Assembly: GCA_902780635.1 (NCBI GenBank) | Contig: CACZGH010000023.1 | Span: forward strand, 1 to 64,000 | DNA: 64,000 bases | DNA from: an uncultured Prevotellaceae bacterium | Lineage (GTDB): Bacteria > Bacteroidota > Bacteroidia > Bacteroidales > Bacteroidaceae | Direction: 5' to 3' | Part shown: positions 38,542-54,405 of the stretch, piece after piece | Layout: every line of letters begins with the position of its first letter | How positions within the stretch are numbered: the stretch's first letter is position 1 | Translations under genes and position numbers: made by a program | The notes under the pieces: model-generated | What the model was told of the DNA's origin: nothing | Seen by the model: the letters and a program-made list of their open reading frames with translations, nothing else | The model's database searches: none

Positions 38542-40050
38542 TCATACGAATCTGCAAACGTGGTCGACAGCGATATCGGAGAAGCCGAAGGCCTCGGCCT
38601 TCGTCATCCGGCCATTGGCTATCTCGGCAACGGTATCGACGAGTCGCATGCCCATCTGCTGGATGGTCTTTTCTCCTCTCAGAACAGCGCTGAGGTCAAC
38701 GTCCATGTTGTCCTCCATCATGTGGAATGTCCGCTCGTTGGCCGTCACCTTCAGCACGGGGGCGATGGCATTGCCCGTTGGTGTACCGCGGCCAGTGGTG
38801 AATACTACCATCTGACAGCCGGAAGCCACCATTGAAGTGACCGATGCGATATCGAAACCAGCGGTGTCCATCACGACGGCTCCTTTCTCTGTAGGTCGTA
38901 CCGCCTGTAGGAGAACCTCCTGGATAGGGCGTGTACCGCCTTTCCTGATACATCCAAGACTTTTTTCCTCAAGAGTGGAAAGTCCGCCGGCCTTGTTGCC
39001 TGGCGTTGGTTGTCCTGCACGGCAGTCCTGTCCGGCTGCGGAGAGATGCGCCTCGTATTCTCGGCACACCTCTATGATCTTATTGTGAATCTCGGGCGTT
39101 GCAGCACGCTTGGCCAGGATGTGCTCACCGCCAATCCATTCTATCGACTCGCTCATCACCGTTGTGGCACCCATGTCCACCAGGATGTCGCTCATCTCAC
39201 CCACCGACGGATTGCTGGCGATGCCCGACGTGGCATCCGAGCCTCCACATTCAATGCCGATATAGAGTTGCGAAGCGTCGAACAGTTCCTTTTGCTGCAT
39301 GCCAGCCTCCTGAGCCATCTGGCGGGCAGCACGGGTGGCTTTCTCTATCGTCTTCAGCGTACCGCCTTCCTCTTGGATGCCGAAGGAAACGACGGGTTTC
39401 CGTGTCAGTAGACCGATTTTCTCTTTCAATTTTCGATGGGGCACGGTCTCGCATCCCAGTCCGATGATCACCACCCCGTAGATGTTAGGATGGCAGGCAA
39501 GTCCCGTCAGAATCTTCTGACTCATGTCGGTGTTGGCTTGTACGTCAGAGCAGCCTGTGTTGAAGACGATGTTCACGGCACCACGAATTTGACTGGCTAC
39601 GATTCGGCAGCTCTCGCTGGCACAGACACATGTCGGCAAGATCAAGATGTGGTTACGGATGCCAGGACGCCCCTCCGTGCGGCGGTATCCCCAAAACTGG
39701 AATGGCTTCGGCTGTTGGCCTTCAGACTGTGCGGCACACATCTGCCAGTCGGCTCCCACCAGTTCACTGTCGTAGTCACGAAGTTCACTCTTCAAATTCA
39801 TGTCGTTCACCCAGCCTCCTTTGTCCACCAACTGCACCAGACGGCCAAGGCTTTCCCCATATTTAATCACTTCACAGCCCACCGACAAATCCTCTAGAGC
39901 CACCTTGTGGCAATAAGGGATGTCCTCCACGGCTTTGAGAACAATACATGCGCTGCCCTTCGTATAGCAGACATCTTCTCCCTTGGCAATCTCTGTGACA
40001 GTGGTCACCACGTTGTCAGCAGCATTCATTAAAAGTGCATTTATTTTCAT
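38542..40050 (-). CDS. uxaA: Altronate dehydratase / UxaA-family hydro-lyase
   Basis: The start at 40050 (MKINALLMNAADNVVTTVTE) gives 502 residues, close to the 495 of E. coli UxaA; the frame extends 34 codons further but passes its own promoter. The N-terminal SAF domain (about 1-95) precedes the dehydratase domain, with FWGYRRTEGRPGIRNHILIL, GCSDVQAN and GIECGGSDATSGIASNPSVG. QPTPGNKAGGLSTLEEKSLG is characteristic of the family. UxaA converts D-altronate to 2-keto-3-deoxygluconate in galacturonate catabolism; galactarate dehydratases are close relatives. No uxaB or uxaC is adjacent. Its promoter block is shared with two other genes. Confidence 0.9.
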   Translation of the reverse strand: MKINALLMNAADNVVTTVTEIAKGEDVCYTKGSACIVLKAVEDIPYCHKVALEDLSVGCEVIKYGESLGRLVQLVDKGGWVNDMNLKSELRDYDSELVGADWQMCAAQSEGQQPKPFQFWGYRRTEGRPGIRNHILILPTCVCASESCRIVASQIRGAVNIVFNTGCSDVQANTDMSQKILTGLACHPNIYGVVIIGLGCETVPHRKLKEKIGLLTRKPVVSFGIQEEGGTLKTIEKATRAARQMAQEAGMQQKELFDASQLYIGIECGGSDATSGIASNPSVGEMSDILVDMGATTVMSESIEWIGGEHILAKRAATPEIHNKIIEVCREYEAHLSAAGQDCRAGQPTPGNKAGGLSTLEEKSLGCIRKGGTRPIQEVLLQAVRPTEKGAVVMDTAGFDIASVTSMVASGCQMVVFTTGRGTPTGNAIAPVLKVTANERTFHMMEDNMDVDLSAVLRGEKTIQQMGMRLVDTVAEIANGRMTKAEAFGFSDIAVDHVCRFV

Positions 40051-40174: not shown

Positions 40175-41590
40175 TCACTCGTTCGTCATTGGTTTACCTG
40201 CCACAAACAATCGATGTCCATTTGTTTTGATAAGTGAGGTGTCACCCTCCAATGATGTGATGGATGTGTCGGCCGTTAAAGTCCAGGTGCAGTCATTGCC
40301 CAAGGTCACATGCACTGTTCCTGTCTCTGTGGAGATGCTTTCTCCAGCCGCGTTGGTGATGTTGCCGCCTATATAGCCGCTGAAAGTGGAACCATCTGTC
40401 AATTTCAGAGTCAGTTCCGAGTCACTGCCTACCAGGATAGTGCCCTCCAACTGCTGTCGGCTCACGTTGAGCGTAGCTTTGTTTGTTGCACCCTGCCATC
40501 CGTCAGCACACACAGACAGCAACACCTTTGCAGGATCGTTATTCACCAGTTTCACATCGTTCAGCGTGATGATGGCGTTGGTGTTGGTCACATGAAAGAG
40601 GTGTCCCCGATGGTTGGTCAGCGAGCCACCGTTCATGGTAAAATGTGAGTTGCCACTGTCGGCATCGCCAGAAAATGACTGGTAAATCATAATGGCATCG
40701 AGGAACTGGGCATGACCGTTGCGCTGTGTGTTGTTCACCGTCATCTGGCAATTGTTCAACGTAATACTATTCTTGCCCTCAATGCACACACCCTCCGACT
40801 TGTTGGATGTAAGCGTGGCATCCGACACAGTGACATCGGCGGTGGAGTAGATGACTGGGGAGCCCAGTCCGTTGCTCGTATAGCTGCCGCCCTCCACGGT
40901 CACAACACCTCCTCCACGGTCGGTGCGTATGGGAGCTGATGACCTTCCGCTGGTGTTTACCGTCAGGTTCTTGGCCTTCATCACACCGCCACCCGTGGTC
41001 ATGATACCTCCAGAACCATCGCCTGTGGTAGTGATTTTGCTGTCCTCGATGATGACAGTGGTGCCATCACCTTGTCCGCCATTATGTCCGCCATTGCCTC
41101 CGTATGAGAATACACCATTAGCACCCGTGCCATCGCTGGTTATCACACCACCCTTGATGGTCGTGGTGCTCCCGCCCTTGACAAGCAAGGCGGCATTCAC
41201 ACCGTAAAAACTGCAGTTATCACCACCGTCCGAGTTGCCTGTCTTGTTGATGGTGGGGTGGGAGAGGGTCACCGCCTCTTTGGTGGATATCAACAGTGCA
41301 CTTTCATCCGCTTTGTCACTTTGGTAGGTCTTTCCCGTTTCAGAAGCTTGAGAGGTCAGTTCTACAGCCCCGGAATAGTTGATGTCCACTTGGCGGGAAC
41401 CCATTCCACCAGGTTTTCCCATCCCATCAGGTCTTCTTGGTTTACCATCGTGCGGTGGGCGTCCAGGCACTTCCCCACGAGGTTGTAAGTCCTGAGGCTG
41501 TTGTGTGTCAACTTGTGCTGCAACATACTGCAAAGAAACAAATGCCAATAGGCAAACTAAAACTATCTTTCTCATTGTTATCTTTCTCAT
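40175..41590 (-). CDS. Secreted beta-helix adhesin-like protein
   Basis: A 471-residue protein with a signal peptide near MRKIVLVCLLAFVSLQYVAA. A Pro/Gly/Arg-rich segment (about 30-68, PGRPPHDGKPRRPDGMGKPG) precedes a long repetitive beta-rich domain full of Gly, Thr, Ser and Asn, as in right-handed beta-helix polysaccharide-binding or autotransporter-like proteins. It has no barrel or sorting tail that I recognise. It follows the Cthe_2159-like gene by 30 bases and is probably co-transcribed with it. Two in-frame ATG codons at 41590 and 41575 arise from a 15-bp tandem duplication. A role in binding acidic polysaccharide is suggested only by the neighbour. Confidence 0.6.
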   Translation of the reverse strand: MRKITMRKIVLVCLLAFVSLQYVAAQVDTQQPQDLQPRGEVPGRPPHDGKPRRPDGMGKPGGMGSRQVDINYSGAVELTSQASETGKTYQSDKADESALLISTKEAVTLSHPTINKTGNSDGGDNCSFYGVNAALLVKGGSTTTIKGGVITSDGTGANGVFSYGGNGGHNGGQGDGTTVIIEDSKITTTGDGSGGIMTTGGGVMKAKNLTVNTSGRSSAPIRTDRGGGVVTVEGGSYTSNGLGSPVIYSTADVTVSDATLTSNKSEGVCIEGKNSITLNNCQMTVNNTQRNGHAQFLDAIMIYQSFSGDADSGNSHFTMNGGSLTNHRGHLFHVTNTNAIITLNDVKLVNNDPAKVLLSVCADGWQGATNKATLNVSRQQLEGTILVGSDSELTLKLTDGSTFSGYIGGNITNAAGESISTETGTVHVTLGNDCTWTLTADTSITSLEGDTSLIKTNGHRLFVAGKPMTNE

Positions 41591-41594
41591 TGTT
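41565..41594 (-). repeat. 15-bp tandem duplication of the translation start region
   Basis: AACAATGAGAAAGAT occurs twice in direct succession, giving two in-frame ATG codons five residues apart (MRKITMRKI). The copies are identical, which suggests a recent duplication. Either start yields a functional signal peptide. Confidence 0.7.
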
Positions 41595-41620
41595 ACTATA
41601 TTATAATCGTGATTAATCTA

Positions 41621-51979: not shown

Positions 51980-52038
51980 AAATTACTTTTTTTTGAGTCG
52001 TGCAAAGCCAAGTGCAAAAACAACGGCCCTTCAGCTCC

Positions 52039-52449
52039 CTATGGCTTCTTGATTTCCAAGATACCATCCACCTCATGCTCGACGAACGGACCCTCCTTGC
52101 ATTCCAAGAGAATGCTCGGCTCCAGACACTCCACTCCGTGCCAAGTGTTCTTGGGGATGTTGACCCCATAAATGCCCTCCTCCTGGCAGACAACACAGGT
52201 TTGTGTCACCTCGCCATCATCATTGTAGATGGTCACTCTGACCTTGCCTTTCAGGATGACGAAGGTCTCGTCTTTGGTTGGATGGTGATGCACCGGAATC
52301 AGTGTGCCAGGTTCCAATGCATTAAGGAAACGGTGGCATTTGTCCTCAAGGCTCTTGTGAAAGTTGTAATTCATCCGCAGCCTTGGTGATTTCCTTGCCT
52401 CGTCCGCCACTTTCTTGATCAGTTTTTCGTCTATGATTTCCATATTCAT
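52039..52449 (-). CDS. WbuC-family cupin protein
   Basis: A 136-residue cytoplasmic cupin. The N-terminal part (LIKKVADEARKSPRLRMNYN) and the metal-site segment IPVHHHPTKDETFVILKGKV, with IPKNTWHGVECLEPSILLEC further on, are characteristic of WbuC proteins. These occur in some O-antigen clusters, but their reaction is not settled. Here it stands alone, without polysaccharide-synthesis neighbours. Its upstream region is the 66-bp repeat array, so array-derived regulation is possible. The start may be Met1 or Met3. Confidence 0.85.
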   Translation of the reverse strand: MNMEIIDEKLIKKVADEARKSPRLRMNYNFHKSLEDKCHRFLNALEPGTLIPVHHHPTKDETFVILKGKVRVTIYNDDGEVTQTCVVCQEEGIYGVNIPKNTWHGVECLEPSILLECKEGPFVEHEVDGILEIKKP

Positions 52450-52480
52450 ATACGTTTATTTTTATGTTTTGTCTTACGTT

Positions 52481-52900
52481 TTATACCTTTGTCCTCCATC
52501 ACCCCCGTCCGTTCCGTATGCTGCTATATCATAGCAGCCATTGTCTTATACCTCTGTCCTCCATCACCCCCCGTCCGTTCCGTATGCTGCTATATCATAG
52601 CAGCCATTGTCTTATACCTTTGTCCTACCTCACCCCACCACCGTTCCGTATGCTGCTATATCATAGCAGCCATAGTTTTATACCTTTGTCCTACCTCACC
52701 CCCCGTCCGTTCCGTATGCTGCTATATCATAGCAGCCATTGTCTTATACCTTTGTCCTACCTCATCCCCCGTCCGTTCCGTATGCTGCTATATCATAGCA
52801 GCCATTGTCTTATACCTTTGCCCTACCTCACCCCCCGTCCGTTCCGTATGCTGCTATATCATAGCAGCCATTGTTTTTATGCTTTGTCCTCCATCACCCC
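52481..52900. repeat. 66-bp tandem repeat array with a perfectly conserved palindrome
   Basis: Six full units and two partial ends fill the divergent wbuC/DUF418 spacer. The core CGTATGCTGCTATATCATAG starts at 52515, 52581, 52647, 52713, 52779 and 52845, a period of exactly 66. Each unit contains GCTGCTAT-ATC-ATAGCAGC, an 8-bp stem with a 3-base loop. About 32 bases around the palindrome (CCGTTCC to AGCAGCCAT) are identical in all six, while changes are confined to the rest, which contains TACCTTTG in most units and a C-rich tract. Two plus-strand frames remain open across the array only because 66 is a multiple of three; no credible coding signal is seen. The rest of the 738-base spacer (52901-53160) is A/T-rich and shows nothing further. 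Confidence 0.9.
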
Positions 52901-53161
52901 ACAACAATATACTGTATTGTGCTTATTTTTAGGTATTTATAATATACTGTTCGCATATGAAGTGGTTGAAAATGTCTTTTGATTTAACAAAAATACTAAA
53001 AAAAATCTAGTTGCAATGGGGTTGATCTTGTTTTTTTCTCTATTGCGCCCCAAATATGAGTTATGTTTGAATATTACTTACGTACGCTATGCATGTAGTA
53101 AAATGGTTTACATGTCAGAACAAATCATGTCTCCTTTTGCCATATTTCGGACAAAAGTATG

Positions 53162-53169
53162 TATTTTTG
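53162..53169 (+). promoter_or_regulatory. -7 promoter box for the DUF418 gene
   Basis: TATTTTTG matches TAnnTTTG, with TTTG 22 bases upstream (53136-53139). The start would be near 53176, about 12 bases before the 53188 ATG, which supports that start codon over upstream in-frame Mets. Confidence 0.6.
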
Positions 53170-53187
53170 CAAAATAAGGCATTACCC

Positions 53188-54405
53188 ATGAATTCATTTG
53201 AAAATCAAACCATTAAAGGACCTACCGCTGAACGCGAGCGTTATATCATACTTGATGCCCTGCGTGGAATGGCCTTGTTGGGTATTGCCATGGCCAATTT
53301 TCCTGAGTTTGCGCTCTGGACCTTTCTCTCGCCAGAGGAGCAGGCCGCCATGCCTACGGCTGGTGTTGATGAGGTGGTGAAATACCTGCAATACTTGTTG
53401 ATTGACGGCAAGTTCTACTCCATCTTCTCTATGCTGTTCGGCATTGGATTCTCTCTGATTCTTGCCCGCCACAGCGTATCGCTTTTCTTGAGGCGTATGG
53501 TGATTCTCGCTGTGATAGGATTATGCCATATGATGTTCCTCTGGAGCGGTGACATCCTGTTCTTATATGCCGTTGGTGGTATGCTGCTGCTATTGTTCAT
53601 CAAATTGAGCGACAAGGCTTTGCTTTGCGTTGCCACCATCCTGATCTTCATTCCTGTCGGTCTGGATGCCCTCATAGAATTCTGTGGGATAGATTTCGTT
53701 GTTCCTTTCTACAATGCCTGGTGGGCGAAAGCTGCCGAGCAGGGCATTACGGAGGAGAACTTTGCCTCATGGCTCCGCGATGCAGACAGCTATCCACAGA
53801 TGTTTGCTTTTCTGTTGCAGGGAGCATACGAGCGGATGTGGGAGTTTGTCAGCGGCCATCGCTTGCCAAAAGTGGTGGGCTTGTTCATTCTCGGCCATCT
53901 GATAGGGAAGCACCGTTTCTATGCGCGGCTCGATTCGTTGCCGTTGAAGCGATTCTTTTGCTGGACCCTTGCGTTGGGCCTCCCCACTTCTCTCATCTAT
54001 GCATGGAGCGCAGTTAGGGGCAACCCATGGGGCCTGACCTGCTATTCTATGCTTTATGCGGTGAGTGTCATTCCTTTGACCTTTGCCTATATCTCTGGCC
54101 TTTGTCTGCTATACTGCCGCTATGCAAAGAAGATGATGCCTGCCCTTAAACTTTTTGCCGCATCGGGGCGTATGGCTTTGACCAACTATATCTCACAGTC
54201 GTTGATGGGCATGTTGCTGTTCTATGGCATCGGAATGGGGTGGGGCACGTCAGTAGGACTTGTCACTATCGAGTTCATAGCCATAGGTGCTTTTTTCCTG
54301 TCCGTATTGTTTAGCAAACTATGGCTCCGCTATTTCCTATTCGGACCTCTCGAATGGATTTGGCGCATCCTGACTTACGGCCGTTTTTTCAAGATGTTGA
54401 GGTGA
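53188..54405 (+). CDS. DUF418 domain-containing membrane protein
   Basis: A 405-residue polytopic inner-membrane protein. ERYIILDALRGMALLGIAMA at the N-terminus is the DUF418 opening, in the broader acyltransferase-3-like group. Hydrophobic helices follow (SIFSMLFGIGFSLILARHSV, ILFLYAVGGMLLLLFI), and the C-terminal DUF418 motif includes GRMALTNYISQSLMGMLLFY and YFLFGPLEWIWRILTYGRF. Its function is unknown; transport or membrane-modification roles have been proposed for relatives. The start at 53188 is supported by the promoter just upstream. It is divergent from wbuC and convergent with hsdR. Confidence 0.88.
   Translation: MNSFENQTIKGPTAERERYIILDALRGMALLGIAMANFPEFALWTFLSPEEQAAMPTAGVDEVVKYLQYLLIDGKFYSIFSMLFGIGFSLILARHSVSLFLRRMVILAVIGLCHMMFLWSGDILFLYAVGGMLLLLFIKLSDKALLCVATILIFIPVGLDALIEFCGIDFVVPFYNAWWAKAAEQGITEENFASWLRDADSYPQMFAFLLQGAYERMWEFVSGHRLPKVVGLFILGHLIGKHRFYARLDSLPLKRFFCWTLALGLPTSLIYAWSAVRGNPWGLTCYSMLYAVSVIPLTFAYISGLCLLYCRYAKKMMPALKLFAASGRMALTNYISQSLMGMLLFYGIGMGWGTSVGLVTIEFIAIGAFFLSVLFSKLWLRYFLFGPLEWIWRILTYGRFFKMLR

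Follow-up and report, generated by a model that had tools for sequence, protein, structure and literature searches.

The closest described counterparts of the repeat discussed here are the REPtrons, in which repetitive extragenic palindromes (REPs) are paired with REP-associated tyrosine transposases (RAYTs, also called TnpA_REP). Several proteins are reported to bind REPs and bacterial interspersed mosaic elements (BIMEs) (PMC2817692). The E. coli TnpA_REP is reported to cut and rejoin single-stranded REP DNA in vitro, and the copying of REP hairpins is described as poorly understood (PMC8266576). A subclass 2.4 has frame-keeping REP insertions inside tnpA_REP, generally between HuH and Y, as well as 'double foot' REPs, and a subclass 2.6, mostly from Bacteroidetes, has structures other than GT[AG]G (PMC6006769). 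The window analysed here is a 64,000-nt stretch (positions 1 to 64,000 of contig CACZGH010000023.1, assembly GCA_902780635.1) from an uncultured Prevotellaceae bacterium, and it carries a tandem array of a palindromic element in the spacer between a wbuC gene and a DUF418 gene. The element is probably a non-autonomous mobile REP-like hairpin of a RAYT (TnpA_REP) family, clustered in tandem at this site. Its likely source is a RAYT family whose genes carry a similar hairpin within their own reading frame.

The array and its element

The array and the six elements in it are located as follows.

52481..52900, plus strand: tandem array of six 66-bp units (the first has 65) and one partial unit
52506..52542, plus strand: REP-like element 1, with foot GTTCCGTAT at 52511-52519 and hairpin at 52520-52538 (covariance model R1, 46.7 bits)
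52572..52608, plus strand: REP-like element 2, hairpin at 52586-52604 (model R1)
52638..52674, plus strand: REP-like element 3, hairpin at 52652-52670 (model R1)
52704..52740, plus strand: REP-like element 4, hairpin at 52718-52736 (model R1)
52770..52806, plus strand: REP-like element 5, hairpin at 52784-52802 (model R1)
52836..52872, plus strand: REP-like element 6, hairpin at 52850-52868 (model R1)

An initial annotation of this DNA had described a six-unit array with a 66-bp period, and the Tandem Repeats Finder (TRF) program recovers it at 52481-52900 with period 66, 6.4 copies, 92% matches and a score of 705. The palindrome GCTGCTATATCATAGCAGC starts at 52520, 52586, 52652, 52718, 52784 and 52850, and all six copies are identical. 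Aligning the units takes a single gap, in unit 1, and leaves 11 of the 66 columns variable. The 33-nt core, made up of the 5' foot and the palindrome, has no variable columns and the remaining 33 columns hold all 11, in agreement with the annotated placement of the substitutions outside the palindrome. An equally long invariant run arises in 0.4% of random placements of the variable columns, and invariance of the 19-bp palindrome alone in 1.6%. The array itself thus gives moderate evidence of constraint. The element is asymmetric, since the 5' foot GTTCCGTAT forms part of it.

Dispersed copies in the genome and the genus

The genome, 4.07 Mb in 57 contigs, has 18 forward and 17 reverse matches to the palindrome at up to 3 mismatches; the reversed control has none, and 12 of the 35 matches are the array counted on both strands. 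Model R1, built from 21 copies, gives 49 matches at E<=1e-3, six of them the array; being trained on these copies, it widens the set and is no proof of a family. The foot has the consensus TGTTCYGTAT, built around GTnnnGTnT and firmest at GT....TnT, and the hairpin is mostly G[CT]TGC-NAT-AYC-ATN-GC[AG]C. Dispersed copies share the 5' foot, and the pairing of their stems is kept by two-sided changes, stem position 6 being T-A, A-T or G-C. The palindrome is kept genome-wide with compensatory changes, and the earlier view that it is the constrained part was right.

Outside the array, copies are single or in groups of 2-4 with a spacing of 37-44 bp, and there is one inverted pair, on contig C5. 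By crude gene calls (ORFs of at least 110 aa), 36 of the 49 copies are intergenic: 21 lie between convergent genes, 10 between codirectional genes, none between divergent genes, and five have a neighbour out of view. The other 13 are within ORFs, six of them in a spurious frame across the array, one in a RAYT gene and six in ORFs with possibly overlong starts. A further weak match to the model lies in the window at 39280-39310 (15.6 bits, E 0.005). Another tandem cluster in the same genome (C8:35397-35544) has four matches at 37-bp spacing, one of them weak (E 0.003), with GTGGC arms in the three copies read.

A search across Prevotellaceae, as the initial annotation had proposed, proved worthwhile. 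Of 276 genomes of the genus, 94, this one included, have copies (model R1, E<=1e-4) in a scan that scored 24 candidates per genome, so that hairpin counts from it are lower bounds (26 against 49 for this genome). In a nearer sample, copies are found in 10 of 40 genomes, again including this one; two of the ten belong to different genera within the order, and each of these two has a single weak match. In the relative G001 the arms diverge (GTGGC/GCCAC, GCGGC/GCCGC, GCAGC/GCTGC) and the foot and loop are alike. One family hairpin of this relative (L103:5740-5758, contig C20) lies inside the end of an ORF whose sequence resembles riboflavin synthase.

A RAYT family with the hairpin inside the gene

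A wider search identifies long RAYT-like proteins in 133 of the 276 genomes, where a single genome can have as many as 11 matches. In some of the genes for these proteins the hairpin lies within the ORF. The genome studied here has one such gene, on contig C6, which encodes 339 aa, contains gttccgtatGTTGCTGTATTACAGCAACaaac and is 65% identical to its counterpart in Prevotella sp. Tb.RUG.131. Across 104 distinct genes (L067, L186-L188, L191 and L207-L316), 95 have the hairpin between HuH and Y, and the reading frame is kept in all 95. The other nine lack the family hairpin; five of these have another hairpin of at least 7 pairs and four have none. The peptides encoded by the in-gene hairpin vary (SVAVLQQQT, SVALATQQT and SVATQSQQT are examples), and the stems pair at 7.87 of 8 positions on average against 4.09 with random synonymous codons, the first figure being slightly inflated because the 95 hairpins were chosen for at least 7 pairs. 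Since the DNA pairs while the peptides differ, selection seems to act on the nucleic-acid pairing, of DNA or RNA, within this stretch of the ORF.

The HUH and Y columns are invariant in 47 aligned members of the family, which have mostly DH[LF]H and YLxDNPRR motifs and a length of about 340 aa. The Y1_Tnp model (PF01797) matches 32 of the 47 at E<=1, the best at 7e-5, and the first member has no match. The RAYT model NF047646, applied to one sister RAYT on contig C1 (L027), gives 35.8 bits, under the curated cut-off of 80. A sequence search of the PDB returns solely matches at E 0.86-0.90, to the ISDra2 transposase. In the predicted structure, residues 139-161, the stretch encoded by the hairpin, are unstructured, with a confidence score (pLDDT) under 50. 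The prediction for the whole protein is a fusion of a TnpA_REP (HUH-tyrosine) core with a C-terminal DprA-like domain; the DprA-like call comes from Foldseek with a VIA second look and covers the folds ranked by Foldseek.

The RAYTs on contigs C1 and C16 (L127) of this genome were set aside as members of other clades with no family hairpin nearby. Other RAYT clades (L165-L170, L121, L181, L182, L161-L163 and L171-L178) have an insert at the same place that holds different hairpins or in-frame repeats, including ENAAGVHG repeats, VVAATDAQ repeats, and CAATCGACCG..CGGTCGATTG with its variants. Among the fetched loci, none of nine sites of the CAATCGACCG..CGGTCGATTG type is outside a RAYT gene. 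Repeats also lie directly downstream of C1-type RAYT genes, at L119:688-1020 (contig C2 of G001) and L027:2260-2360 (contig C1 of this genome), and the one in G001 is an open frame of repeated MAKPLGTVA.

Association of the element with the RAYT family

The feet are alike in three sets, namely to the left of the in-gene hairpin, to its right (as the reverse complement) and in the dispersed copies. The initial GT and final T are firm across all three, and other positions less so. A strict foot-plus-hairpin motif at 80 RAYT loci (747 kb) has 70 sites in-gene, in 63 genes, and 35 outside. All but two of the outside sites are within 140 nt of the RAYT gene (23 downstream and 10 upstream, at 29 loci), and at three of the 80 loci (L241, L263 and L267) there are copies on both sides. 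Shuffled versions of these loci, five for each, have zero sites. The beside-gene copy shares its 8-nt arm with the in-gene copy in 23 of 24 comparisons, a number that none of 20,000 permutations reaches (mean 11.6). The arms of beside-gene copies thus change from one RAYT gene to another along with the gene: at L239 the in-gene and beside-gene copies both have a rare GTCGC arm, and L212 has a half-changed GCTGC/GCAAC copy.

The two also occur together across species. RAYTs at E<=1e-40 are present in 55 of 63 genomes with at least three hairpins and in 57 of 213 others (at E<1e-105, in 41 and 32 of these, respectively), a comparison that, like the arm test, ignores phylogeny and shared descent, has at E<=1e-40 a cut-off that lets in sister clades, and may count the in-gene copy itself as a hairpin. 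The likeness of the in-gene foot and hairpin, the matching arms beside the genes and this co-occurrence are the grounds for taking the RAYT family as the source.

Besides these limits on the tests, several observations weigh against a RAYT-derived mobile element. The genes on either side of the array are divergent, which is the case for none of the other intergenic copies. A RAYT at E<=1e-40 is missing from 21 of the 94 hairpin genomes, four of which have 6 to 13 copies; one of the 21, G262, has a weaker RAYT match. Conversely, the hairpin is not matched at the cut-off in 39 of the 112 genomes with a RAYT. The array arms GCTGCTAT differ from those of the genome's own RAYT gene, GTTGCTGT, at 2 of 8 positions, and the arm of that gene is found in three dispersed copies. 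The flanks of the C6 RAYT gene in the 2-kb locus L067, which reach some 0.6 kb upstream of it and some 0.4 kb downstream, have no copy. The foot here is GTHT, with a tetranucleotide that is mostly GTAT, GTCT, GTTT or CTAT and so falls outside the GT[AG]G of the REPtrons (PMC2817692, PMC6006769). A RAYT remnant on contig C2 (L205, C2:78793-79116), of which only part of the DprA-like end is left, lies shortly after a GCTGC stem, CTATGCTGCGGCA..TGCCGCAGCC, with an 8-nt loop (seen by eye only). The GCTGC subfamily of the array may have belonged to a RAYT paralogue that is now broken or lost.

Possible origin of the array

By analogy with what is reported in vitro for the E. coli TnpA_REP (PMC8266576), the RAYT would recognise the foot and hairpin as single-stranded DNA, cut it and rejoin it, and copies of the element would spread in this way. 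A single copy may have arrived between wbuC and DUF418 and, together with about 33 bp alongside, may have been multiplied by tandem duplication of the usual kind, through slippage or unequal recombination. Homogenisation, or selection for binding, would have excluded later changes from the 33-nt element. One arrival followed by tandem duplication is the most likely history of the array, and if the array is bound by a protein, a RAYT is the most likely binder.

It seems that the RAYT gene itself specifies what its product acts on, with like hairpins and like feet in the ORF, beside the gene and genome-wide, which makes many matched pairs of transposase and substrate available for binding and cutting tests. 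The presence of a DprA-like domain in a transposase hints at a connection between the spread of REPs and recombination that acts on single-stranded DNA. A more speculative proposal, which we hold to be possible but rather doubtful, is that this Prevotellaceae RAYT-DprA lineage carries its own in-frame REP as an address label, and that the DprA-like domain protects the single-stranded REP or hands it over to recombination, driving both copying and tandem amplification.

Neighbouring genes and alternative explanations

The features around the array are the following.

52039..52449, minus strand: WbuC-family cupin gene (TIGR04366, 150.6 bits, cut-off 42), with 31 nt between its first start codon and the array
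52464..52982, plus strand: open frame of 172 codons that spans the array, judged not to be a gene (a second frame is open, and Pfam is negative)
53136..53169, plus strand: Bacteroidetes-type promoter pattern before DUF418, outside the array
53188..54405, plus strand: DUF418 gene (PF04235, 123.8 bits, cut-off 23.6), start chosen as the ATG at 53188

Both family matches are above their cut-offs, and the placement of the array between divergent wbuC and DUF418 genes stands. The promoter pattern, TTTG..TATTTTTG, is 18 nt ahead of the DUF418 start codon and beyond the array. In the best 29 relatives' loci for wbuC, the family hairpin is absent from the upstream region searched (600 nt), and in the best 10 of 29 loci for DUF418 it is likewise absent upstream of that gene. 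Model R1 detects one clear copy among these 39 loci, 1.3 kb from wbuC (L373), and two further weak matches (E 0.017 and 0.046). The closest DUF418 relative (L318, 92% identical) has another upstream gene and no array, and retains a stretch like the DUF418 promoter pattern beside its start codon. Gene order at the locus is not conserved in the relatives, so there is no clean empty site. The initial annotation had itself named relatives' loci without the palindrome as a refuting observation, and on that count the local role it considered fails; a local regulatory array was rejected on these loci together with the position of the DUF418 promoter pattern. The array is more likely to be mobile DNA than a switch for a gene. 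Elsewhere in the window, a perfect 15-bp tandem repeat, TATCTTTCTCATTGT, is present in two copies at 41564-41595.

The six identical cores with their invariant 33-nt element would also suit a multi-site protein-binding array, for titration or nucleoid anchoring, selected at this site, and several proteins are indeed reported to bind REPs and BIMEs (PMC2817692). The absence of the array from the wbuC and DUF418 loci checked in relatives, and a dispersed element tied to a transposase gene, make this unlikely. Still less probable is that the hairpins act in RNA, as a terminator, attenuator or mRNA stabiliser for the wbuC or DUF418 transcripts. Both strands of the array do fold strongly (z -5.1 and -6.1), the array region has six terminator-like matches against 0.4 expected, and convergent genes flank many of the dispersed copies, but most units have only a poor T tract (CATTGTCTTA in 4 of 6), Rfam has no match at E<=0.1 over 52000-53500, and a terminator would account neither for the conservation of the foot nor for the copies inside genes.

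It is very improbable that the array tunes wbuC or DUF418 as a switch through its copy number. The number of units in a tandem repeat can change, and 31 nt separate the array from the first start codon of wbuC, but no such array is seen in the relatives checked, and the DUF418 promoter pattern is kept in the 92% identical relative that has none. The -7-like box that the initial annotation saw in most units is indeed there, as TACCTTTG in five of the six full units (TACCTCTG takes its place in unit 2), but its promoter partner is not: the boxes have no TTTG partner, with zero matches to TTTG-N17-23-TAnnTTTG within the array, and sigma-70-like matches in the array region are at the chance level (2 against 2.9). 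A gene for a repetitive 172-residue protein would be consistent with the frame that is open across the array. However, a second frame is open as well, there is no Pfam match at E<=0.001, and a stop-free frame recurs through the array simply because 66 is a multiple of three; this explanation can be given hardly any weight. The REP-like mobile hairpin is the preferred reading.

Comparison with known systems

The open-licence literature searched, as far as its text was available, yielded no DprA-like RAYT fusion, no GTHT foot, no Prevotella or Prevotellaceae REP family and no direct proof that REPs move. CRISPR arrays also have regular palindromic repeats, but here the spacers repeat too, the units being alike over their full 66 bp, and the element is dispersed genome-wide; CRISPR had been dismissed in the initial annotation, rightly so. 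BIMEs are likewise clusters of REPs between genes. They alternate in orientation (PMC2817692), whereas the array has one orientation and includes neighbouring DNA in a 66-bp period.

Subclass 2.4 (Bertels group 4; PMC6006769) has the in-frame REP between HuH and Y, the double-foot form, a variable insert and Bacteroidetes among its hosts, all as found here. The in-gene REP is therefore not new. The proteins of that subclass have a median of 194 aa, end without an extension domain at the C-terminus and carry the motifs NH[IFV]H and YIxNNP, unlike the family described here with its about 340 aa, DH[LF]H, YLxDNPRR and C-terminal DprA-like domain. Because motifs, length, DprA-like tail and foot differ, the family is not filed as subclass 2.4.

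The REPtrons (Nunvar 2010, PMC2817692; Quentin 2018, PMC6006769) are similar in that a short palindrome is preceded by a conserved foot on its 5' side, in the numerous copies between genes and their clusters, and in an HUH-Y1 transposase gene in the genome with beside-gene hairpins that have matching arms. They differ in usually having more than 100 copies per genome, against tens here (a lower bound). The genome's own RAYT, moreover, is unflanked, and where a copy flanks the RAYT of a relative, at 29 of 80 loci, it is usually on one side. In the way it works the element resembles a REP, but with a foot that departs from GT[AG]G it would be an outlier among them.
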